A stretch of DNA of 44,438 bases from positions 1 to 44,438 of the forward strand of contig NZ_JAGQEG010000046.1 in NCBI RefSeq assembly GCF_018305005.1, read 5' to 3'. This stretch comes from Collimonas silvisoli. Lineage in GTDB: Bacteria > Pseudomonadota > Gammaproteobacteria > Burkholderiales > Burkholderiaceae_D. A model generated the notes under the pieces. That model saw only the letters and a list, made by a program, of their open reading frames with translations, ran no database searches and was not told where the DNA came from. The translations under genes were made by a program, and so were the position numbers. Below, piece after piece: positions 28,132 through 39,465 of this stretch. Positions within the stretch are counted from its first letter, which is position 1. Each line of letters begins with the position of its first letter.

Positions 28132-28323
28132 TCCTATCGGGTTTTTCGGAAACGTTACTTTTCGTTACCAATTAATCCTATCTTTTTGTTATTTGGTGAG
28201 CCCTTGTAAACCAATTCACGCTTTAGTGCGTTACAGATAATTGCAGGGTGTTGAAACCGGCACATGCAAAAATTTCAGCATTCACGTAAGTATCGTCCTA
28301 TTGCATTGCCTCATTGCTCACTC

Positions 28324-30480
28324 ATGAAAAACATCGAAATTCTCCGCATCATGTCGCTACGCGGACCAAATATCTGGACGTATCGACCAACTCTTGAGGC
28401 GTGGATCGACATCGGCGAACTGGAAGATTTCCCCTCCAATACCCTGCCCGGCTTTAACCAGCGCCTGACCAGCTGGCTGCCTTCCCTGATCGAGCATCGC
28501 TGCAGCTACGGCGAACGCGGCGGTTTTGTGCAGCGGCTGCAAGACGGCACCTGGCCCGGCCATATTCTCGAACACGTCACGCTGGAATTGCAAAACCTGG
28601 CCGGCATGCCCGGCGGTTTCGGCAAGGCGCGCAGCACCTCGGTGCGCGGCGTCTACAAGGTTGCGGTCCGCGCGCGCCATGAACAAGTGACCCGCGCCGC
28701 CATGCACGCCGCCCGCGACCTGGTCATGGCGGCGATTGAGGACAAAAAATTCGACGTTCCTGCCACCATCGTTGAACTGCGCAGCATGGTGGATTCGCTC
28801 TGCCTGGGACCAAGCACGGCCTGTATCGTGGATGCGGCAAATGAGCGGCGCATCCCCTCTTTCCGCCTCACTGAAGGCAATCTGGTGCAGCTCGGCCACG
28901 GCATTCGCCAGCGCCGCATCTGGACCGCGGAAACCGATCAAACCAGCGCCATCGCCGAAAGCATCTCCAGCGACAAAGACTTGACCAAAAACTTGCTGCA
29001 AGCTTGCGGCGTGCCGGTGCCGGAAGGACAACTGGTGGAAAGCGCCGCAGAAGCCTGGGAAGCGGCCGAAGATATCGGCTTGCCGGTGGTCGTCAAGCCG
29101 TCCGATGCAAATCATGGCCGCGGCGTCTTCATCGACCTCAAGACCCGTACTGAAATCGAAACCGCTTACGAACTCGCATTGCAAGAAGGCAGCAGCGTCA
29201 TTGTCGAACGTTTCATTCGCGGCAATGAGCATCGGCTGTTGGTCGTCGGCGGCCGGCTGGCGGCAGCTGCGCGCGGCGAGCCGCTGTCAGTCACAGCCGA
29301 TGGCAGTTCGACCATCCGGCAACTGATAGACAGGCAGATCAATTCCGACCCGCGCCGCGGCGAACTCGAAGAATGTCCGCTAAGCCTGGTGTTGCTGGAT
29401 GAAGAACCGGTGGTGCGGGTGGAACTGGAGAGGCAAGGCTATACCGGCGAATCGATCCCCGCAGCAGGCCAGCAAATATTAATCCAACGTAACGGCAACG
29501 TCGCCATCGACGTCACCGATCTGGTACATCCCAGCGTCGCCGCCGCAGCGTCGCTGGCGGCACGCGTGGTCGGCCTGGATATTGCCGGCGTCGACCTGGT
29601 GGCCGAAGACATTTCCCGTCCGCTGGAAGAACAGCGCGGCGCGATCGTCGAAGTCAATGCCGGCCCCGGCTTGCTGATGCATCTGAAACCGGCTGAAGGC
29701 AGGCCGCGCCCGGTGGGCAGGGCCATCATCGAGCACCTGTTCGCCGCGGCCGACAATGGCCGCATCCCGATCGTCGGCGTCACCGGCACCCATGGCAAAA
29801 CCACCGTCTCGCGCCTGATCGCCTGGCAACTCCACTTGAGCGGCAACCATGTCGGCCTGGCTTGCGGCGACGGCCTCTATTTCGCGCAGCGGCAAGTCGA
29901 AAAAGGCGACCGCGCCAATTGGGAATCGGCGCAACGGGTGCTGATCAACCGCGCAGTCGAAGCCGCCGTGTTCGAGAACAGCCACGAGACCATCCTGTCG
30001 GAAGGCCTGGTCTACGACCGCTGCCAGGTCGGCGTCGTCACCAATATTGCCGCCGACGACAGCTCGCCGCAGTACTACATCGGCGACGCCGAGGAAATGG
30101 TGAAAGTGACCCGGACCCAGGTCGATGTCGTCTTGCCGGGCGGCGTCGCCGTGCTGAACGCCGCCGATCCGCTGGTAGCGGGCATGGCGCCGTTGTGCGA
30201 CGGCGAAGTGATTTTCTTTGGCCTCGACCCTGCCCTGCCGGTGATTGCAGAACAGCTTGAGCAAGGCAAGCGTGCGGTCTTTATCCGCAATGACCAGATC
30301 ATGCTGGCCATCGGCAAGAACGAAACGCTACTGGCCGACATCACCACCGTGCCGTTGATTGCCCGCAGCAAAGACCGCTTCCAGATTGAAAATGTATTGG
30401 CGGCAGTGGCTGCCGCATGGGCGCTGGACATCTCTCACGATTTGATGCGTGCAGGGATAGAGACTTTCGAGATGGTTTAA
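28324..30480 (+). CDS. cphA': Cyanophycin synthetase-like protein CphA' (short form)
   Basis: 718 aa. Domains in order: N-terminal domain (ILRIMSLRGPNIWTYRPTLE to about 160), ATP-grasp domain (SSDKDLTKNLLQACGVPVPE, VVVKPSDANHGRGVF, IVEVNAGPGLLMHL; about 220-475), and a Mur-ligase-like central domain with P-loop GVTGTHGKTTVSRL near residue 483. The chain stops at AVAAAWALDISHDLMRAGIE, where the full-length paralogue next door continues for about 145 residues with the Mur C-terminal domain. Mur motifs also differ from the neighbour (NSHETILSEGL instead of TARGGILREGL). The ATG at 28324 matches the family start; the frame is open to 28264. A terminator follows. The real reaction is uncertain. 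Confidence 0.9.
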   Translation: MKNIEILRIMSLRGPNIWTYRPTLEAWIDIGELEDFPSNTLPGFNQRLTSWLPSLIEHRCSYGERGGFVQRLQDGTWPGHILEHVTLELQNLAGMPGGFGKARSTSVRGVYKVAVRARHEQVTRAAMHAARDLVMAAIEDKKFDVPATIVELRSMVDSLCLGPSTACIVDAANERRIPSFRLTEGNLVQLGHGIRQRRIWTAETDQTSAIAESISSDKDLTKNLLQACGVPVPEGQLVESAAEAWEAAEDIGLPVVVKPSDANHGRGVFIDLKTRTEIETAYELALQEGSSVIVERFIRGNEHRLLVVGGRLAAAARGEPLSVTADGSSTIRQLIDRQINSDPRRGELEECPLSLVLLDEEPVVRVELERQGYTGESIPAAGQQILIQRNGNVAIDVTDLVHPSVAAAASLAARVVGLDIAGVDLVAEDISRPLEEQRGAIVEVNAGPGLLMHLKPAEGRPRPVGRAIIEHLFAAADNGRIPIVGVTGTHGKTTVSRLIAWQLHLSGNHVGLACGDGLYFAQRQVEKGDRANWESAQRVLINRAVEAAVFENSHETILSEGLVYDRCQVGVVTNIAADDSSPQYYIGDAEEMVKVTRTQVDVVLPGGVAVLNAADPLVAGMAPLCDGEVIFFGLDPALPVIAEQLEQGKRAVFIRNDQIMLAIGKNETLLADITTVPLIARSKDRFQIENVLAAVAAAWALDISHDLMRAGIETFEMV

Positions 30481-30524: not shown

Positions 30525-30551
30525 GATTAGTAACAATAGGAAAACTTGTTG

Positions 30552-33122
30552 ATGGACGTATCACGTATCCGAGTACTTCGCGGCCCCAATCTGTGGAGTC
30601 GACATACCGCTATCGAAGCCATCGTGTCTTGTACCGATGCCGAGCGCGCCATCGCAGGCATCGCGGGTTTCGAAGCCAGGCTACGTGAACGCTTCCCACA
30701 GATCGGCTTCCTGGAAGCAAGCGGCAAAAGCGAAGTGGTCTCGATGGCCCACGCATTGGAGATTGCCGCGCTCGGACTGCAATCGGAAGCCGGTTGCCCG
30801 GTCACTTTCAGCCGCACCGTGCCCACGCTGGAAGCCGGCGTCTATCAGGTAATCGTTGAATACACTGAAGAAGATGTCGGCAAGCTGGCTTTCCGACTGG
30901 CGCAGGAGCTGTGCCTGGCAGCGCTGGAAGACAAGCTTTTCGATCTCACCGGCGCCTTGGCCAACCTGCAGGAACTGGACGAAGACATCCGCCTCGGACC
31001 AAGCACCGGCTCCATCGTGCAAGCCGCCGTAGCGCGCGGCATTCCATTCCGCCGCCTGACCGGCGGCAGCATGGTGCAATTCGGCTGGGGCAGCCGCCAA
31101 CGCCGCATCCAGGCGGCCGAAACCAACCACACCAGCGCCATCGCCGAATCGATCGCCCAAGACAAAGACCTGACCAAAAAGCTGCTGAACGCTGCCGGCG
31201 TGCCGGTGCCTATGGGCCGGGTGGTCAGCAGCGCCGAAGAAGCCTGGGCTGCAGCCCAGGAAATCGCCGGCCCGGTGGTGCTCAAACCGCGCGACGGCAA
31301 TCAAGGCAAGGGCGTGGCGGTCAACATCACCGCCCGCGAACAAATCATGGCGGCCTTTGAAGTCGCTGCAAAAATCTGCTCGGAAGTCATCGTCGAGCGC
31401 TATCTGCCGGGCCACGATTTCCGTCTGCTGGTAGTCGGCAAGCAACTGATTGCCGCCGCCCGCCGCGATCCGCCGCAAGTCATCGGCGATGGCGTGCGCA
31501 GCATCAGCCAGTTGGTGGAGCAGGTCAATAGCGACCCGCTGCGCGGCGAAGGCCATGCCACTTCACTGACCAAAATCCGCTTCGATGCGATCGCCCTGGC
31601 CACCTTGGCCAAGCAGAATTACAGCGCCGATTCGATTCCGCAGCAAGGCGTGCGCGTGGTCTTGCGCAACAACGCCAACCTGAGCACCGGCGGCACCGCG
31701 ACCGATGTCACCGAAGATGTCCATCCGGAGCTGGCGGCACGTGCAGTGGCTGCGGCGCAAATGGTGGGCCTCGATATCTGCGGCGTCGATGTGGTCTGCA
31801 ACAATGTTCACCAACCGCTGGAAGAACAGGAAGGCGGCGTAGTCGAAGTCAACGCCGCACCCGGCTTGCGCATGCACATCAGCCCTTCCTACGGCAAGGG
31901 CCGCGCAGTCGGCGCCGCCATCATGTCGACCATGTTCAAAGACGGCGACAACGGCCGCATCCCGCTGGTAGCGGTGGCCGGCACCAACGGCAAAACCACT
32001 ACCGTGCGCCTGATCGCCCACCTGCTGGGCCGCAAAGGGCTGCGCGTCGGCATGACCAATTCCGACGGCGTCTACATCGAACAGCAACGCATCGACACCG
32101 GCGATTGCAGCGGTCCGCGCAGCGCCCGCAATGTCTTGATGCACCCGGACGTCGACGCCGCCGTGTTTGAAACCGCGCGTGGCGGCATCTTGCGTGAAGG
32201 CCTCGGCTTCGATCGCTGCGATGTCGCCGTGGTCACCAACATCGGCATGGGCGATCACCTCGGCCTGAGCTATATCAGCACGGTGGAAGACCTGAGCGTG
32301 GTCAAACGCGTGATCGTCGAAAACGTCGCCCCTGGCGGCCATGCCGTCTTGAACGCGGCCGATCCGATGGTCGCCAGCATGGCCAAATCCTGCTCCGGTT
32401 CCGTCACCTTTTTCGCCCACGATTTCCATCACCCGCTGATGACCACCCACCGCGCCCAAGGGCATCGGGTGGTGTACCAGGACGGCAACGCCATCGTCGC
32501 CGCCAAGGGCAAGCAAGAGCATCGGATAGCGCTGCAAGAAATCCCGCTGACCCGCAACGGCACGATCGGCTTCCAGATCGAAAACGCCATGGCGGCGATT
32601 GCCGCCGCCTGGGCCTTGAACCTGGATTGGGATGTGATCCACGCCGGCCTCGGCACCTTCATCAACGACGCCGCCACCGCACCAGGCCGCTTCAATGTAT
32701 TCGACTATCGCGGCGCCACCCTGATTGCCGATTACGGCCACAACCCGGATGCGATCCAGGCGCTGGTAAAGGCCATCGACAGCATGCCCGCCAAACGCCG
32801 CTCGGTAGTCATCAGCGGCGCCGGCGACCGGCGCGATATCGACATCCGCCATCAGACTGAAATCCTCGGCGACGCCTTCGATCAGGTAATCCTGTATCAA
32901 GACCAATGCCAGCGCGGCCGCGCCGACGGCGAAGTGCTCGGCCTGTTGCGCGAAGGCCTGCAAAATGCCCGCCGCACCACGTCGACCGAAGAAATCAACG
33001 GCGAATTTGTCGCCATCGATACCGCCTTGTCGCATCTGTCGCCGGGCGATCTTTGCCTGATCCTGGTCGACCAGGTGGAAGAAGCGTTGGCGCATATTGC
33101 CAAGCGTATCGCTGAAGTTTAG
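30552..33122 (+). CDS. cphA: Cyanophycin synthetase (full length)
   Basis: 856 aa, typical length. It polymerises aspartate and arginine into cyanophycin, an insoluble nitrogen store, using ATP. N-terminal domain (RIRVLRGPNLWSRHTAIEAI), ATP-grasp (QDKDLTKKLLNAAGVPVP, VVLKPRDGNQGKGVAV, VVEVNAAPGLRMHI) that adds Asp to the backbone, and Mur-ligase-like domain (VAVAGTNGKTTTVRLIAHLL at about 474, FETARGGILREGLGFDRCDV, NIGMGDHLGL) that adds Arg to the side chain. The C-terminal domain includes IADYGHNPDAIQALVKAI and VISGAGDRRD. The ATG at 30552 is chosen over two in-frame TTG codons just upstream. No cyanophycinase gene is present in the window. Confidence 0.96.
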   Translation: MDVSRIRVLRGPNLWSRHTAIEAIVSCTDAERAIAGIAGFEARLRERFPQIGFLEASGKSEVVSMAHALEIAALGLQSEAGCPVTFSRTVPTLEAGVYQVIVEYTEEDVGKLAFRLAQELCLAALEDKLFDLTGALANLQELDEDIRLGPSTGSIVQAAVARGIPFRRLTGGSMVQFGWGSRQRRIQAAETNHTSAIAESIAQDKDLTKKLLNAAGVPVPMGRVVSSAEEAWAAAQEIAGPVVLKPRDGNQGKGVAVNITAREQIMAAFEVAAKICSEVIVERYLPGHDFRLLVVGKQLIAAARRDPPQVIGDGVRSISQLVEQVNSDPLRGEGHATSLTKIRFDAIALATLAKQNYSADSIPQQGVRVVLRNNANLSTGGTATDVTEDVHPELAARAVAAAQMVGLDICGVDVVCNNVHQPLEEQEGGVVEVNAAPGLRMHISPSYGKGRAVGAAIMSTMFKDGDNGRIPLVAVAGTNGKTTTVRLIAHLLGRKGLRVGMTNSDGVYIEQQRIDTGDCSGPRSARNVLMHPDVDAAVFETARGGILREGLGFDRCDVAVVTNIGMGDHLGLSYISTVEDLSVVKRVIVENVAPGGHAVLNAADPMVASMAKSCSGSVTFFAHDFHHPLMTTHRAQGHRVVYQDGNAIVAAKGKQEHRIALQEIPLTRNGTIGFQIENAMAAIAAAWALNLDWDVIHAGLGTFINDAATAPGRFNVFDYRGATLIADYGHNPDAIQALVKAIDSMPAKRRSVVISGAGDRRDIDIRHQTEILGDAFDQVILYQDQCQRGRADGEVLGLLREGLQNARRTTSTEEINGEFVAIDTALSHLSPGDLCLILVDQVEEALAHIAKRIAEV

Positions 33123-33182: not shown

Positions 33183-34862
33183 TCAGGCCTGACGTTTCAC
33201 AGGTCCCTTGGTGGCTGCGCGATGAGAACGAGTCAAGGCCGTTTGCAATCGGCCAAGCCCGGCCGACACATCCTTCCCGGTATCGAACAGCAACGCTTCA
33301 AGATGATCGCTCAGTATCTGTATCACTGCGTGATAGTGCGGCAGCGCCGGTGCAGGAAATGCCTGAATCTGTTGCGCCTCTGCCAGTTGCCCCATCACGC
33401 CGATGACGCGATTGCGCTGCAATACATAACGGTCCTCGGCTACCGAATAGCGCGCATTGCCGGCCGCGCCGTGCAGCACAAAGTATTTCATCAGTTCCGG
33501 CGAAGTCAGCGTCTCAATCGCCTTCCAGGCGCGCTGTGCAGCGCTGTCATGGCTGCTGGACGGAATCGCCAGCAGGGCGCCGCCTAGGGGTGAAATCGGC
33601 GTCATGCCGGGCGCAAACGTCGGATGCAACTGCAAACCGATACGGCCGCCTTTTTGCAATAGCGCATGACTGTCGAGCATGCCGTGACGGTTCGACCAGC
33701 CGTAGCACATCGCGGCTTGTCCGCGCCCGAATATCTGTGCGCTGCGTACCCAATGAGCACTACGCAGCTGGGCTTGCGAATAAGGAAGCAGCGCACGCAA
33801 ATATTCGCAGACCCGCCGGCCCGCCTCGGTATCGACCATCAGCACGCCGGCGTCGCCGGAAAGTGCGCCTTGCGCACCCAGAATCTGTAAGAACGTCTCG
33901 GCGATCGGCAGGCCCGGCGCGGCGCTCCACGTAATTCCGGCGCGCGCTCGACTGGGCCGGTGCAACACGCGAGCACATTCGATGACGTCTTCAAAGCAAC
34001 GTGGCGGCGACAATCCCTCTGCATCGAACAGATCCTGCCGATACCAGAGAAAATCCAGCGTCGGCTGGATCGGCATGCCATACAGACGCCCCTGGCACCA
34101 GCCGGCACGCCATACGGCATCGTAGAAATCGGCGCCGGATACCTGGCCGCCCGCTTCCAGCATTTGCAAATCGAGCAGCCGTCCGTCGCGACAAGACTCT
34201 GCCAGCCACGGAAACGGAATGGCTACCAGCACAGGCGCGGCCGGAGCCGGGGTAAGGCTCGACGACGGCGCCAGGGCGGCGTCGAGCATCGGCCGATAGG
34301 TATCTTGCGGGTAGGTCAGGATGCGCAGCCGCATGCCCAGGAAGCGTTCAACATCGGCGCGATTCTGTTTGATGATGTCGAACACCGGATCGGCATAGGC
34401 GACCAACGTCAATTCGACCGCCGCATCAAAGCCAGATGCGGCGGGACGCGGCCATGCGATATCGGCGGCGGGGTTCAGGGTTACTGCATTGAAGCGGTCG
34501 AACGATTGTGTGTCGACCGCATCCACCAGTAGCTTGATGGTGTGCCCGGTGATGCTGTCGAGGCGGTCCAGCAGCAAAGCCGAAGGCGTGACCTGAGCGC
34601 GATTGCTGTGCGCCGACATCGGCGGCAGCTGCAGCCATCCCTGCGCCTTCAATCCAAAGATGATGCGGCGCGCGCTGCTGCGCGGCAGGCCGGAGAGATC
34701 GGCGAGCGCGGTGATGGTCGTGTGACGGCCGCTCAGAAAATTTCGCAGCAGCGCACTGAGAATCGGCCACGCGCCCTGAGCCGCCTCGCCGAGTTCGGAA
34801 CGCAGTATGTCCAGCAGCTTGTCAACGATAGTGATCGCCGCATAGCGGTCGAGTCCGTGCAT
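33183..34862 (-). CDS. Winged-HTH protein fused to a family-1 sugar-binding-protein domain (putative sugar-responsive regulator)
   Basis: 559 aa without a signal peptide or membrane helix. Residues about 35-90 form an IclR/MarR-like winged helix (TTITALADLSGLPRSSARRI followed by LKAQGWLQL). From about 150 to 515 the chain looks like an ABC solute-binding protein of family 1: GRLYGMPIQPTLDFLWYRQD, LFDAEGLSPPRCFEDV, then GGALLAIPSSS and AWKAIETLTSPELMKYF. A good GAGGAG ribosome binding site precedes the ATG. It is divergent from a carbohydrate operon with a palindrome between. The likely reading is a cytoplasmic regulator that senses a sugar with a binding-protein domain; a secreted binding protein is unlikely because there is no export signal. 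Confidence 0.75.
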   Translation of the reverse strand: MHGLDRYAAITIVDKLLDILRSELGEAAQGAWPILSALLRNFLSGRHTTITALADLSGLPRSSARRIIFGLKAQGWLQLPPMSAHSNRAQVTPSALLLDRLDSITGHTIKLLVDAVDTQSFDRFNAVTLNPAADIAWPRPAASGFDAAVELTLVAYADPVFDIIKQNRADVERFLGMRLRILTYPQDTYRPMLDAALAPSSSLTPAPAAPVLVAIPFPWLAESCRDGRLLDLQMLEAGGQVSGADFYDAVWRAGWCQGRLYGMPIQPTLDFLWYRQDLFDAEGLSPPRCFEDVIECARVLHRPSRARAGITWSAAPGLPIAETFLQILGAQGALSGDAGVLMVDTEAGRRVCEYLRALLPYSQAQLRSAHWVRSAQIFGRGQAAMCYGWSNRHGMLDSHALLQKGGRIGLQLHPTFAPGMTPISPLGGALLAIPSSSHDSAAQRAWKAIETLTSPELMKYFVLHGAAGNARYSVAEDRYVLQRNRVIGVMGQLAEAQQIQAFPAPALPHYHAVIQILSDHLEALLFDTGKDVSAGLGRLQTALTRSHRAATKGPVKRQA

Positions 34863-34952
34863 GGTTGCGATCTCCTCTGGCGGATGGCTTCAACGTTTCG
34901 GATCTAACCGGTGCGCTACCCAACAAACTTCATAACTGATTGATTTTACTTG

Positions 34953-34973
34953 AAATAACCAGAATGGTTATTT
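34953..34973. promoter_or_regulatory. Candidate operator palindrome in the divergent region
   Basis: A perfect inverted repeat AAATAACC-agaat-GGTTATTT lies 91 bp upstream of the HTH-SBP gene and 89 bp before the sugar-binding-protein gene, almost at the midpoint. A minus-strand -10-like TAAAAT (34943-34948) is next to it, so binding could block one promoter and control the other. A second, looser repeat ATGACT/AGTCAT with a 12-bp spacer is at 35008-35031. Confidence 0.6.
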
Positions 34974-35061
34974 TCGAATGTCCGCCCGCGGATGCTGCGG
35001 CCGTAACATGACTACGCCACAGAGCAGTCATCAAACCAACCAAACCATCAGGAGACAAAGC

Positions 35062-36081
35062 ATGAGACGAGTAGCCATCCGGCTTGCGGCCTTCGCTATC
35101 CTTGCGTTCAGCGCGCATGCATTCGCCGCAGAGGCACGGTTCGTATTGATCACGCACGCGCCCGATTCGGATCCATTCTGGAACGTGGTCAAGAATGCGA
35201 TCAAAGACGCCGGGCAGGACTTCGGCGTCACGGTGCATTACCGCAATCCGCCGAACGGCGACCTGGCCGACATGACGCGCATCCTGGAGCAGGTCGCGGC
35301 GCACAACTACGACGGCGTCATCACCACCATTCCCGACTTCGACATCGTGCAAGCACCGATCCGCAGGATCGCCGCAAAACATATTCCGCTCATCACCTTC
35401 AATTCGGGCACCGATCGGCAGAGCGAAGCATTGGGCGCCTTGCTGCACATCGGACAGCGCGAATACGACGCCGGCAAAGCGGCCGGCGAACGGGCAAAAG
35501 CCGCCGGCGTCAAGTGCTTCCTGTGCGTCAACAACAATGTGACCAATCCCGAATCGTTCGAGCGTTGCCGCGGCTTCGGCGATGCGATCGGCGCGGACTT
35601 CAAGCAGTCGACGCTCGACTCAGGCAACGATCCCACCGAGGTCGAGAACCGCGTGTTCGGAACCTTGAGCAAACGCCCGGATATCCAAGCCATCCTTACA
35701 CTCGGCCCAACCTCCGCTGTGCCATCGCTGCGGGCGGTGCAAAAGCGCCGTCTGACCGGCAAGATCTATTTCGCCACCTTCGATATGACGCCTGAGATCA
35801 ACCAGGCCATTGCAGCGGGCACGGTAGCGTTCGCAGTCGACCAGCAACCCTATCTGCAAGGGTATATCCCGGTGGCCATGCTAGCCATCATGCGACGCGA
35901 CAAGATGCAGAATATCGATCAGGCACGCAAGACGCTGCTGGCGGACGCCAATTTCCAGCGGCGCCTCAAACTGTATGGGCTGATCCCGCATTTCGGCCCT
36001 CGCCACGTCGCCACCGGCCCCAGCTTCGTCACCCGCGACAACGTCGAGCTGGTCGAGAAATACGCGGGCCAGTATCGCTGA
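35062..36081 (+). CDS. Periplasmic sugar-binding protein of CUT2/RbsB type (orphan)
   Basis: 339 aa with a clear signal peptide (RRVAIRLAAFAILAFSAHAF then AAEA). The mature part is a type-I periplasmic binding fold (Peripla_BP_4): RFVLITHAPDSDPFWNVVKN, YDGVITTIPDFDIV, PLITFNSGTDR, FATFDMTPEINQAI and AVDQQPYLQGYIPV. Family members deliver ribose-like sugars, inositol or similar polyols to an ABC importer. The ATG at 35062 is preceded by AGGAG; the frame is open further up but the start there would lose the signal peptide. No permease or ATPase gene is beside it, so it must use a transporter encoded elsewhere or serve in sensing. Confidence 0.9.
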   Translation: MRRVAIRLAAFAILAFSAHAFAAEARFVLITHAPDSDPFWNVVKNAIKDAGQDFGVTVHYRNPPNGDLADMTRILEQVAAHNYDGVITTIPDFDIVQAPIRRIAAKHIPLITFNSGTDRQSEALGALLHIGQREYDAGKAAGERAKAAGVKCFLCVNNNVTNPESFERCRGFGDAIGADFKQSTLDSGNDPTEVENRVFGTLSKRPDIQAILTLGPTSAVPSLRAVQKRRLTGKIYFATFDMTPEINQAIAAGTVAFAVDQQPYLQGYIPVAMLAIMRRDKMQNIDQARKTLLADANFQRRLKLYGLIPHFGPRHVATGPSFVTRDNVELVEKYAGQYR

Positions 36082-36170
36082 TCTATACCTGCAATGACCG
36101 CCCATCGGCACTGCGCTGCGCCGCTGCAGTCATTCGACATCATTGCCGTGATTTAACTTGGAGATCTATC

Positions 36171-36968
36171 ATGTTTCAACTAGCGATATGCGCTGAAATG
36201 GTCTTTCAGGATTTGCCGTTTGTCGACCGAGTTCGAAAAATCCATGACTTGGGCTTTCAAGTCGAGATCTGGGACTGGACCCGGCACGACCTCAACGCGC
36301 TGGCGCGAACCGGCGCCCGCTTTTCGTCGATGACCGGTTATATCGAAGGCGATCTGATCACCGCTGCAGGCGCAGATGCCTTGCTGCGCACCGCCGAACA
36401 ATCCATCGAAGCCGCCGGCAGGCTCGGCTGCCCCCGCCTCAATTTGCACGGAACCGGCCTCGACGCTGCGGGACTGCCGGTCCAGCCGATAGCGGCGGCG
36501 TCCGGCCCCATGTGGCTGGCGGCGCAGCGCACGCTGACGCGCATCGCCGAGTTAGGGCAACGCGCGGGCCTGGTGTTCTGCCTCGAAAACCTGAACACCG
36601 AGGTGGATCACCCAGGAGTGCCGTTCGCCCGCGCAGCAGACACGCTGGCGCTGGTGAGCGCAGTCGACAGTCCGCATCTGCGGCTCAATCTCGATCTCTA
36701 TCACGCGCAGATCGGCGAGGGCAACCTGATCGAACTGGTGCGGCGCGCACTGCCGTATATCGGTGAGATTCAGGTGGCCGACGTGCCCGGACGATGCGAA
36801 CCCGGAACCGGCGAGATCAACTATCCAGCCATTGCCCGCGCACTGGCAAGCGCCGGTTATCGCGGCACTATCGGCCTCGAAGCGTGGGCCAGCGGCGGCA
36901 GCGAGCAGGCGTTGCGGCGCTTCCGGGACGCCTTCACCGTTTCGACGGAAGCAATCACGAATCGGTAA
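36171..36968 (+). CDS. TIM-barrel sugar isomerase/epimerase (hydroxypyruvate isomerase-like)
   Basis: 265 aa, AP-endonuclease-2-like TIM barrel, hydroxypyruvate isomerase branch. It starts FQLAICAEMVFQDLPFVDRV and shows barrel motifs FQVEIWDWTRHDL, GCPRLNLHGTG, LVFCLENLNTEVDHPG (metal-binding Glu), LRLNLDLYHAQIGEGNLIEL (Asp and His ligands), IGEIQVADVPGRCEPGTGEI and GTIGLEAW (last Glu). Members interconvert hydroxypyruvate and tartronate semialdehyde, or epimerise ketoses or inosose. The substrate cannot be fixed, but the neighbours (binding protein, Gfo/Idh/MocA dehydrogenase) suggest a sugar or polyol catabolic step. It is 89 bp after the binding-protein gene, with TTGGAG before the ATG. 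Confidence 0.85.
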   Translation: MFQLAICAEMVFQDLPFVDRVRKIHDLGFQVEIWDWTRHDLNALARTGARFSSMTGYIEGDLITAAGADALLRTAEQSIEAAGRLGCPRLNLHGTGLDAAGLPVQPIAAASGPMWLAAQRTLTRIAELGQRAGLVFCLENLNTEVDHPGVPFARAADTLALVSAVDSPHLRLNLDLYHAQIGEGNLIELVRRALPYIGEIQVADVPGRCEPGTGEINYPAIARALASAGYRGTIGLEAWASGGSEQALRRFRDAFTVSTEAITNR

Positions 36969-37026
36969 ACAGCAACGTTTGATTCTGCACCATGAATTTC
37001 AATCAACTTAACAACAGGAATCCAAA

Positions 37027-38046
37027 ATGAAACAGAATAAAACAGTCAAGGTCGGCCTGATTGGCGCCGGTGCGATCGGTTCGTTCCACGGCGAGAGTAT
37101 CGCGCGCCGGGTGCCTGGCGCGCAGCTCGCCGCGATCGCAGATCCGGCGGCTGAGGCAGCCCAACGCCTTGCAGACCGGCTGCATTGCGCCAGTGCGACT
37201 ACCGATGTCCAGCAGATCATTACCGATCCCGATATCGACGCGGTCATCATCGCCGCCCCGGCACGGTTTCACAGCGAACTCATCGTCATGGCGGCGGAGG
37301 CCGGTAAAGCAGTGTTCTGCGAAAAGCCGATGGCGCTGACGATCGAAGAAGCCGACCGGGCGATCGCCGCTGCGCGCGCAGCAAAAGTGCCGTTGCAAGT
37401 CGGCTTCAATCGCCGCTACGACAATGCCTGGGCCGAAGCGCAACGCAGCATCGTCGCCGGCGAGCTGGGAACGCCGCAATTGCTGCGCTCGCTGACGCGC
37501 GACCCGGAACTGGCCGATCCTGCGCGCGTTCCGCCATGGGCGATCTTTCTGGAAACGCTGATTCACGACTTCGATACGCTGCGCTTCTTCAACCCCGGCT
37601 CGGAGGTGATCGAAGTCTATGCCATCGCCGACGCACTGGTGCGGCCGGACTTCAAGTCGCGCGGCCTGCTCGATACCGCGCTGGTCAGCCTGCGCTTCGA
37701 CAACGGCGCGATGGCCTGCGCCGAAGCGAACTTCCAGGCGGCCTACGGCTACGATGTTCGCGGCGAAGTATTCGGTTCAAGGGGGATGGTGACGATGGGA
37801 GACGTGCGCCGCTCGAATGCGGCCTACTTCGGCGCAAACGGGATAAACAGCCCCACCACGCAGCTCAACATCGATCTGTTTCACGATGCCTATACGGCGC
37901 AATTGGTCGAATTCGTCGCAACGGTCCGCTCGGGTGAGGTGCAAGGGCCAAGCGGCGAAGCCGCGCGTGCCGCACTCGCCCTTGCGCTCGCGTGCATTCG
38001 CTCGGTCACTGAAGCGCGGCCGGTCCGGCTGGCGGAGGTATTGTAA
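37027..38046 (+). CDS. Gfo/Idh/MocA-family oxidoreductase (inositol 2-dehydrogenase-like)
   Basis: 339 aa NAD(P)-dependent sugar or polyol dehydrogenase. The Rossmann start KVGLIGAGAIGSFHGESIAR is followed by AVIIAAPARFHSELIVMAAE, the cofactor-binding EKPMALTIEEAD motif (Lys active site) and QVGFNRRYDNAWAEA. The C-terminal substrate domain has LIHDFDTLRFFN with the conserved Asp-His region, then GRGEVFGSRG-like residues (RGEVFGSRGMVTMGD). It looks like myo-inositol 2-dehydrogenase (IolG) rather than glucose-fructose oxidoreductase, but the substrate is inference. AACAGGAA precedes the ATG. It is the last gene of the operon and converges closely with the MFS gene. Confidence 0.88.
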   Translation: MKQNKTVKVGLIGAGAIGSFHGESIARRVPGAQLAAIADPAAEAAQRLADRLHCASATTDVQQIITDPDIDAVIIAAPARFHSELIVMAAEAGKAVFCEKPMALTIEEADRAIAAARAAKVPLQVGFNRRYDNAWAEAQRSIVAGELGTPQLLRSLTRDPELADPARVPPWAIFLETLIHDFDTLRFFNPGSEVIEVYAIADALVRPDFKSRGLLDTALVSLRFDNGAMACAEANFQAAYGYDVRGEVFGSRGMVTMGDVRRSNAAYFGANGINSPTTQLNIDLFHDAYTAQLVEFVATVRSGEVQGPSGEAARAALALALACIRSVTEARPVRLAEVL

Positions 38047-38052
38047 ACAACC

Positions 38053-39465
38053 CTAAGCCGGTTTATGCCCCGTCAATGCAGCGCCGGCATTCAAAGGCAG
38101 CCGCCGGGTCACAGGAATCGACGCCATCGAGAACAGGCCGATGACAATGAAGGCCGGCCAGAAATCTCCCGCCACGATGGTCGAGTGCCCCTGCAAGCGG
38201 CTCGACATATGCACCGCCAGGCCGCCGATAGTCACCCCCAGACCCAAAGAAATCTGCTGCACCACGCTGGCCAGGCTGGTAGCGCGGCTGACGTCGGCGC
38301 TATCGAGATCGGCGTAAGCCATGGTATTGAGGCAGGTGAATTGCATCGACGGGAAAAAGCCGCCCAGCAATACCACCGCCATCATCACCAGATAAGGCGT
38401 GGTCGGCGTGAACAAACCATACGAGGACAGCGCCAGCCCGGCCAGCACAGCATTCCACATCAGCACCGAACGGAAACCGTAACGACGCAGGATCGAGGTG
38501 CCGATGGCCTTCATGAAGATCGCGCCAAAGGCCGAGGCGCAAGTGATGGTGCCGGCGTGAAAGGCATTCATGCCAAAGCCGACCTGCAGCGTCAGCGGCA
38601 ACAGGAACGGCACCGCCCCCAGCCCGATGCGGAACAGCGAACCGCCGATCACGCTGGCACGGAAAGTCGGGATTCGCAGCAGACGCAGATCCAACAGCGG
38701 AAAGGGTTCGCGCCGCGCATGCAGCAGATACACGTACAAGGTCAGGCCGCCCAGCACGCACATGGCGAAGGCCCATTCCGACGACAGCAACTCACCGTCG
38801 ATCAGCGACAGTCCAAGCATCAGCAGCGTACTGCCAACCGCAGACAAGACAAAACCCTTCATATCCAACGGCTGCAAATCGTCGGAACGGTAATTCTCGA
38901 TATAGCGGCTGGCCAGGTACATGCCGAGAATACTGATAGGAACATTAATCAGGAAAATCCAGCGCCAATGGAAATAAGTCGTGATGAAGCCGCCCAGCGG
39001 CGGCCCGATCACCGGCCCCAGCTGTGAGGGAATGGTCAAATAGCTGATGGCCTTGACCAGTTCGGTACGCGGCACCGAACGGAAAATCACGATGCGCCCG
39101 ACCGGCACCATCATGGCGCCGCCTATGCCCTGCAAAAAGCGCGCAGCGACAAACGCCACCATCGAACTCGACGCTGCGCACATCAGCGAACCGGTCAGGA
39201 ACACCATGATCGCGGAACGGAACACGGTGCGCGCACCGAAACGATCGGCTACCCAGCCGCTGATCGGGATGAACACGCCGAGCCCGACCACATACGAGGT
39301 CAGCGCCAGTTTCAGGGTAAGGGGGTCTTGTCCGAGGTCGCGCGCAAGCACCGGCAGAGAGGTGGCAATCACCGTCGCATCCATGTTTTCCATGAACAGC
39401 GCGCAAGCAACAATAAGCGGAATAAGAAGAGTACGTGACACTGCTGATGACCGTAGGGTAAACAA
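38053..39465 (-). CDS. DHA2-type MFS multidrug exporter
   Basis: About 470 aa of alternating hydrophobic helices, EmrB/QacA type (14-helix family). Motifs are ENMDATVIATSLPVLARDLG in helix 1 (the DHA2 D-x-T signature), motif A GWVADRFGARTVF, and RFLQGIGGAMMVPVGRIVIF with motif C-like GPVIGPPLGGFI after it. Such proteins export drugs or metabolites by proton exchange. The longest frame starts with a TTG at 39465; a GTG at 39441 is a possible alternative, and neither has a strong ribosome binding site, so the start is uncertain. It ends 6 bp from the dehydrogenase gene on the other strand. A link with the sugar operon is not shown. Confidence 0.88.
   Translation of the reverse strand: MFTLRSSAVSRTLLIPLIVACALFMENMDATVIATSLPVLARDLGQDPLTLKLALTSYVVGLGVFIPISGWVADRFGARTVFRSAIMVFLTGSLMCAASSSMVAFVAARFLQGIGGAMMVPVGRIVIFRSVPRTELVKAISYLTIPSQLGPVIGPPLGGFITTYFHWRWIFLINVPISILGMYLASRYIENYRSDDLQPLDMKGFVLSAVGSTLLMLGLSLIDGELLSSEWAFAMCVLGGLTLYVYLLHARREPFPLLDLRLLRIPTFRASVIGGSLFRIGLGAVPFLLPLTLQVGFGMNAFHAGTITCASAFGAIFMKAIGTSILRRYGFRSVLMWNAVLAGLALSSYGLFTPTTPYLVMMAVVLLGGFFPSMQFTCLNTMAYADLDSADVSRATSLASVVQQISLGLGVTIGGLAVHMSSRLQGHSTIVAGDFWPAFIVIGLFSMASIPVTRRLPLNAGAALTGHKPA

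Follow-up and report, generated by a model that had tools for sequence, protein, structure and literature searches.

The window analyzed here is a stretch of 44,438 nucleotides from Collimonas silvisoli that carries, at 33183–34862 on the minus strand, an open reading frame with an ATG start and full-length homologues, encoding a protein of 559 amino acids. The original prediction held that this protein joins a winged helix-turn-helix (wHTH) to a family-1 solute-binding protein (SBP) of the type-II fold, and Pfam, phmmer searches of the PDB, structure models and Foldseek all bear this out. Pfam places HTH_IclR (PF09339) at residues 38–78 (E 1.1e-6, 28.7 bits against a cut-off of 22), SBP_bac_8 at residues 208–476 (E 7.3e-15, 55.9 bits, cut-off 27) and SBP_bac_1 at residues 229–457 (E 4.6e-12, 47 bits, cut-off 26); a match to MarR_2 falls under its cut-off. 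Among the four families reported by Pfam at E≤1 there was no LacI HTH, type-I Peripla_BP, HTH_1, LysR_substrate or IclR effector domain (which we take to be PF01614). In NCBIfam, no model scored above its curated cut-off in the window protein; four families were reported for 25 members of the family, and each falls short of spanning the fusion. The closest PDB sequences found by phmmer are family-1 SBPs, the best being 5iai (E 1.2e-15, residues 149–528); the sequence of 4rya, sorbitol-binding by name, is a weaker relative (E 0.079).

Structure models, both of moderate confidence, display the same layout. The full-length AlphaFold2 model (pLDDT 70.5, built from 13 sequences) has helices at residues 28–43, 50–56 and 61–73 followed by short wing strands, a helix at 95–114, a low-confidence stretch at 111–135 and then the SBP part. 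From the Pfam match, these helices and strands, and residues T51, P60 and R66, which are invariant in 13 homologues, we assign the winged HTH to residues ~28–93 (34584–34781, minus strand). The 95–114 helix (34521–34580, minus strand), placed after the HTH by AlphaFold2 secondary structure and running into a linker of low pLDDT, is a possible dimer or connector helix. The family-1 solute-binding domain, MalE-type and of the type-II fold, occupies residues ~146–550 (33213–34427, minus strand) according to Pfam, phmmer and Foldseek. Modeled alone (pLDDT 67.6), it matched 5iai in Foldseek with an E-value of 5.7e-18 and TM scores of 0.71/0.75, while the whole-protein model reached only 0.32/0.43, probably because its SBP lobes are misplaced.

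The protein appears, from its N-terminal sequence, to be cytoplasmic, with its sensor half staying inside the cell. Consistent with the lack of a signal peptide noted in the original prediction, a simple hydropathy test found no signal-like N-terminal segment in the window protein or its family. Over the first 60 residues, hydropathy averaged in 12-residue stretches peaks at 1.61 in the window protein and at 0.77–2.16 in 25 family members versus 1.89–2.97 in 16 unfused SBPs, ranges that overlap slightly and that include some unfused SBPs whose starts are guesses. This bears on the reading that the protein is a true periplasmic binding protein serving an ABC importer, its HTH match being coincidental or its start miscalled. 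In favor of it, proteins with SBP_bac domains are as a rule exported, ABC importer genes are found near many of the distant homologues, and 11 of 12 fetched homologues are named as solute-binding or periplasmic components (10 extracellular solute-binding proteins and 1 periplasmic sugar-transport component; the remaining one is hypothetical). However, the HTH_IclR match is above its cut-off, the first 100 residues show conservation across the family, T51, P60 and R66 included, and the gene mostly stands back to back with its neighbor across a gap with a shared motif, as described below. Furthermore, homologues did not turn up as exported partners of permeases: every importer operon wholly in view has an SBP gene of its own, apart from the fusion, so transport does not require the fusion as its receptor. 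(One importer operon, at locus L108, is cut by the locus edge and falls outside this statement.) We therefore consider a periplasmic binding protein very improbable.

Divergent from the regulator gene lie three genes on the plus strand. The first (35062–36081) encodes a type-I periplasmic sugar-binding protein (Peripla_BP_4, 6.6e-41) that resembles rhizopine-binding SBPs, its best NCBIfam match being the rhizopine-binding family NF052284 (2.2e-70), at 237 bits under a cut-off of 420. The second (36171–36968) encodes a TIM-barrel isomerase/epimerase that is hydroxypyruvate-isomerase-like (AP_endonuc_2, 4.8e-31; TIGR03234, 2.4e-33, under its cut-off), and the third (37027–38046) a Gfo/Idh dehydrogenase near the inositol 2-dehydrogenase IolG (TIGR04380, 3e-97, 325 bits against a cut-off of 355). 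No importer permease or ATPase gene adjoins this operon (35062–38046), and an operon without an importer of its own recalls the rhizopine moc genes. In the rhizopine system the inositol permease components IntBC and the binding protein MocB work together as a hybrid importer (PMC10107442). By analogy, the SBP encoded at 35062–36081 may borrow a transporter as MocB does. Matches to a CUT2 permease occur at 14 stretches of the organism's own genome, the best of them on two contigs: C205, where genes for xylulokinase and transaldolase accompany a ribose-type importer, and C33, where a ribose-type permease is accompanied by an L-fucose-dehydrogenase-type gene. Among the ten proteins scanned on C205 and C33 there was no inositol transporter or inositol gene that could go with the lone SBP.

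A scan of a genome collection returned 12 loci with relatives over most of the protein's length, ten from betaproteobacteria (Collimonas, Caballeronia, Paraburkholderia and Burkholderia sp.; 58–90% identity) and two from alphaproteobacteria (28–30%). Among 60 relatives sampled, matches at E≤0.001 came from 15 genomes, at full length only in the own genome and in G007 and in the SBP part in the rest. Matches on plasmids come from 58 records, mostly alphaproteobacterial (Rhizobium 29, Phaeobacter 12) and several of them near-identical; 33 match 80% or more of the query at a single site and 25 match partly. In the order of one distant alphaproteobacterium (Phycocomes, Paracoccaceae; L011), 23 of 196 genomes matched a 25-member profile at E≤1e-60; among the matches listed, all span nearly the whole profile and two contain an internal TGA. 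In the order to which the window belongs the family is rare: at least 4 of 399 genomes match at E≤1e-30 and at least one of the 399, namely the own genome, does so at full length. Across the phylum at least 6 of 398 genomes match, the own genome included, in a search that shares some genomes with that of the Phycocomes order. Both the own-order and the phylum counts are lower bounds, up to three candidates per genome having been scored. Some genomes (G429, G430 and G449) hold three copies each.

Sequence conservation extends over both halves of the protein. Among the 25 members, SBP_bac_1 and SBP_bac_8 match all 25, HTH_IclR matches 12 and MarR_2 matches 12 (E≤0.01). The protein of locus L107 had no HTH match at E≤0.01; the alignment spans the HTH region in all 25 members, with R66 invariant. 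Eight positions in the SBP half (P264, R275, D277, W371, Y387, P425, G427 and G428) are invariant over the 25 members, and the distant relatives are about 22–29% identical. In a tree of the SBP domain, 27 fused and 16 unfused rows fell on the two sides of a single branch with support 100/100, recovered in 100% of 200 bootstrap trees. Three of the 25 members (L002, L004 and L009) were left out as near relatives, and the unfused set includes L016, L048, L049, L050, L018 and L019 and excludes L023, L025, L027, L029 and L032. One fusion event at the family's origin is favored by this tree, not proven, because the 16 unfused sequences were picked by similarity and are not a sample of the SBP superfamily.

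A survey of the neighborhoods of homologues, which the original prediction had proposed, found the regulator gene mostly back to back with an SBP or TIM-barrel gene and a shared motif in the gap. The loci are related by descent, and the counts of gene order and motif that follow are therefore not independent. In all 12 betaproteobacterial loci (the window, L001–L010 and L035) the regulator gene stands back to back with an operon, and the first gene across the gap encodes a type-I SBP in 10 and the TIM-barrel protein in 2 (L006 and L008). At these two loci the TIM-barrel gene directly adjoins the regulator with no type-I SBP in the gap position, and an IolG-like gene lies on the other side. Among 28 distant loci (L087–L106 and L109–L116), the regulator gene of 24 stands back to back with one for a type-I SBP, which has CUT2 importer genes behind it, and four (L100, L102, L103 and L105) are arranged differently; L107, whose genome belongs to the same class as the window, shares the type-I SBP arrangement. 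In 17 of these 29 loci (L087–L107 and L109–L116) the regulator is followed by genes for an SDR, an Xaa-Pro-peptidase-like protein, E1 alpha, E1 beta, E2 and a succinate-semialdehyde-dehydrogenase-like protein.

The surroundings are more varied at 11 alphaproteobacterial plasmid loci. At five (L036, L037, L038, L042 and L044) the regulator gene and a type-I SBP gene stand back to back; four others (L039, L041, L043 and L046) adjoin dehydrogenase clusters, with intradiol dioxygenase and maleylacetate reductase genes in view in three. At L040 the gene is part of a cluster whose genes all run in its direction, and at L045 its neighbor is a CUT1 importer. In a Paraburkholderia genome (G431), the second copy of the regulator gene, a paralogue (L108, 7980–9689), lies amid genes for intradiol dioxygenase and maleylacetate reductase, present in two sets, a setting that resembles three of the rhizobial plasmid clusters and that may represent a pathway of the polyol-to-hydroxyquinol type. 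Collectively, the family adjoins sugar or inositol-type breakdown genes, and its context is mostly small-molecule catabolism.

Between the divergent genes of the window lies a perfect palindrome, AAATAACCA-GAA-TGGTTATTT (34953–34973, no strand assigned), that is a candidate operator. The original prediction had pointed to this palindrome, and it is indeed there, with perfect 9-bp arms and a 3-bp spacer. Its core, CA-N3-TGG-N-TAT, occurs in the upstream region of all 12 betaproteobacterial loci. Over both strands of the 11 such loci besides the window, 15 core matches fall in 451,646 bases, and 11 of them are the upstream sites. The 15-base half pattern CCANNNTGGTTATTT is confined to the palindrome, once per direction, in the 5.66 Mb of the own genome; this uniqueness is weak evidence, since the pattern is also present in 4 of 11 other genomes, once each and apparently by chance.

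An alignment of distant upstream regions displays the same type of dyad, TATCCA-N3-TGGATA. CCA-N3-TGG is present in 18 of 40 distinct distant 300-base upstream segments versus an expectation of 4.8 based on the remainder of these loci, and is missing from the other 22; any other spacer from 0 to 12 between CCA and TGG occurs in at most 3. The CCA-N3-TGG core was taken from the window's palindrome and counted after the distant alignment had been viewed, and the figure of 18 of 40 omits L102 (the same gene as L011) and L107 (19 of 42 with both). A joint pattern, TAWCCANNNTGGWTA, has a site with two or fewer mismatches in 36 of 56 upstream regions (55 distinct), with about 0.9 regions expected from a background of 3.3e-5 per position, counts that lean toward the pattern because it was built from some of the same sequences. 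Such a site is absent from 19 of the 55 distinct regions, including two from betaproteobacteria (L006 and L008) and those of the dehydrogenase-cluster relatives L039, L041, L043, L045 and L046. Two loose sites exactly 21 bp apart, with up to four mismatches allowed in the second, occur in 23 of the 55 distinct regions, none of them betaproteobacterial; the next commonest distance occurs in 6. A separation of 21 bp corresponds to two helical turns, as two dimers bound on one face of the DNA would need. In the window itself, a half-similar dyad, TGTCC-N6-GGATG, is weakly apparent by eye at 34979–34994, its center ~23–24 bp from that of the main palindrome, and is possibly a decayed second site. 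A scan of 34800–35120 for sigma-70 promoters and terminators found none. The gene order and the candidate operator back the claim of the original prediction that the protein controls the divergent operon, which we consider very probable.

Several known regulators share part of this design. LysR-type regulators, of ~300 residues, also join a wHTH to an effector domain of the type-II periplasmic-binding fold, but HTH_1 and LysR_substrate were unmatched in the window protein at E≤1. The sugar regulators of the LacI/GalR type have, like the window protein, a sensor resembling a periplasmic binding protein, but theirs is of the type-I fold and is coupled to another HTH, neither of which was matched. 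The IclR family shares the HTH_IclR-type winged helix, whereas the sensor of the window protein is an SBP and no IclR effector domain was matched; a weak local match to PcaR/PcaU appeared in 8 of the 25 members. Family-1 SBPs such as 5iai (Arad_9887) resemble the sensor domain in fold and sequence but are transport proteins without an HTH.

The layout as a whole, a wHTH fused to an ABC-type solute-binding domain, is that of SgrR and DsvR. By Pfam, Escherichia coli SgrR (551 amino acids) consists of SgrR_N (PF12793) and a family-5 SBP (PF00496). Its homologue DsvR of Vibrio cholerae is described likewise as a wHTH-SBP regulator (PMC13060122), a small-molecule signal has been proposed for SgrR/DsvR (PMC7786190, PMC13060122), and sgrS and setA are given as SgrR targets (PMC4021124). 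Calling the window protein a new class of sugar sensor therefore goes too far: SgrR is already a wHTH joined to an SBP, and LysR-type regulators already use the type-II fold. Could the window protein be a diverged member of the SgrR family? Beyond the same layout and similar length (559 versus 551 amino acids), there is a weak alignment of the HTH regions (BLASTP E 0.017 over 45 residues; hhalign probability 23.6, E 0.00085), and SgrR_N matches 2 of the 25 members (best E 0.0099). However, the SBP of SgrR belongs to family 5 and that of the window protein to family 1/8, the HTH families and the targets differ, and neither PF12793 nor PF00496 is found in the window protein at E≤1. Moreover, the hhalign comparison, in which the family profile was set against one SgrR sequence, aligned only 74 columns around the HTH and nothing beyond. 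In the own genome PF12793 had no matches at E≤0.001, with 2 of 14 control genomes positive, including E. coli. Descent from within the SgrR family is thus extremely improbable. What is new, judging from the domain profiles, is a distinct, unnamed family with another SBP family and another HTH profile. Sharing the layout of SgrR and not its domain families, it would form a separate branch of binding-protein-based regulators. No description of a natural family combining an IclR-type HTH with SBP_bac_1 was found among the open-licence PMC papers listed, and one may exist elsewhere.

We propose, with a probability of roughly 0.8, that the window protein is a cytoplasmic one-component regulator whose MalE-type flytrap senses a polyol or cyclitol and which controls the divergent operon; binding of both DNA and ligand is predicted. 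The IclR-like winged HTH would read the CCA-N3-TGG-type dyad in the intergenic region as a dimer; binding in this mode, through IclR-type wings, is suggested by the dyad and by the family of the domain. The family-1 Venus-flytrap domain would bind the pathway substrate or its product in the cytoplasm. The likeliest ligand is a cyclic polyol, such as inositol or inosamine, or its keto form, since the operon is IolG-like and rhizopine-like, each match lying under its family cut-off, and the nearest solved SBP is 5iai, which presumably holds ribitol. The open-to-closed change would then act allosterically, moving the helix and linker at residues 95–140 and altering DNA binding, and this would switch the divergent operon for the rhizopine-like SBP, the TIM-barrel isomerase and the IolG-like dehydrogenase, and probably the regulator's own gene too.

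We also considered that the protein is a wHTH-SBP regulator whose sensor has lost small-molecule binding and instead docks a partner protein such as a transporter or kinase. The family is without a known ligand, as this would have it, but the invariant positions of the SBP half, from P264 to G428, and a context of mostly small-molecule catabolism speak against it, and we regard partner docking as unlikely. The reading as a polyol sensor extends to the family as a whole: probably, a single joining of an IclR-like wHTH to a maltose-binding-type flytrap gave rise to a distinct family of alpha- and betaproteobacterial regulators that read a CCA-N3-TGG dyad and sense cyclitols or related polyols inside the cell. 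If so, the architecture that imports such compounds also reports on them, and binding proteins became regulators by a route separate from those of LacI, LysR and SgrR. In soil and marine bacteria, the regulators of operons for polyols, inositol-type compounds and ring cleavage would have been overlooked because they are filed mostly as transport proteins (11 of 12 above). With a predicted operator for the family, its regulons can be drawn by computer. Engineers of biosensors build regulators of this design by hand, making a sensor by fusion of a soluble periplasmic binding protein with a DNA-binding domain (PMC6079105); those chimeras are man-made, whereas the present family would be a natural case of an ABC-importer flytrap joined to a DNA-binding domain.

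Two adjacent plus-strand genes, at 28264–30480 and 30546–33122, encode proteins with cyanophycin-synthase-like N-terminal, ATP-grasp and Mur-ligase domains, which look to us like a cyanophycin synthetase pair; the second reading frame has a TTG start as listed and ends 60 bases short of the end of the regulator gene. On the far side of the divergent operon and convergent with it, a minus-strand gene at 38053–39465 encodes a DHA2-type MFS transporter (MdtD/EmrB-like, under the curated cut-offs).
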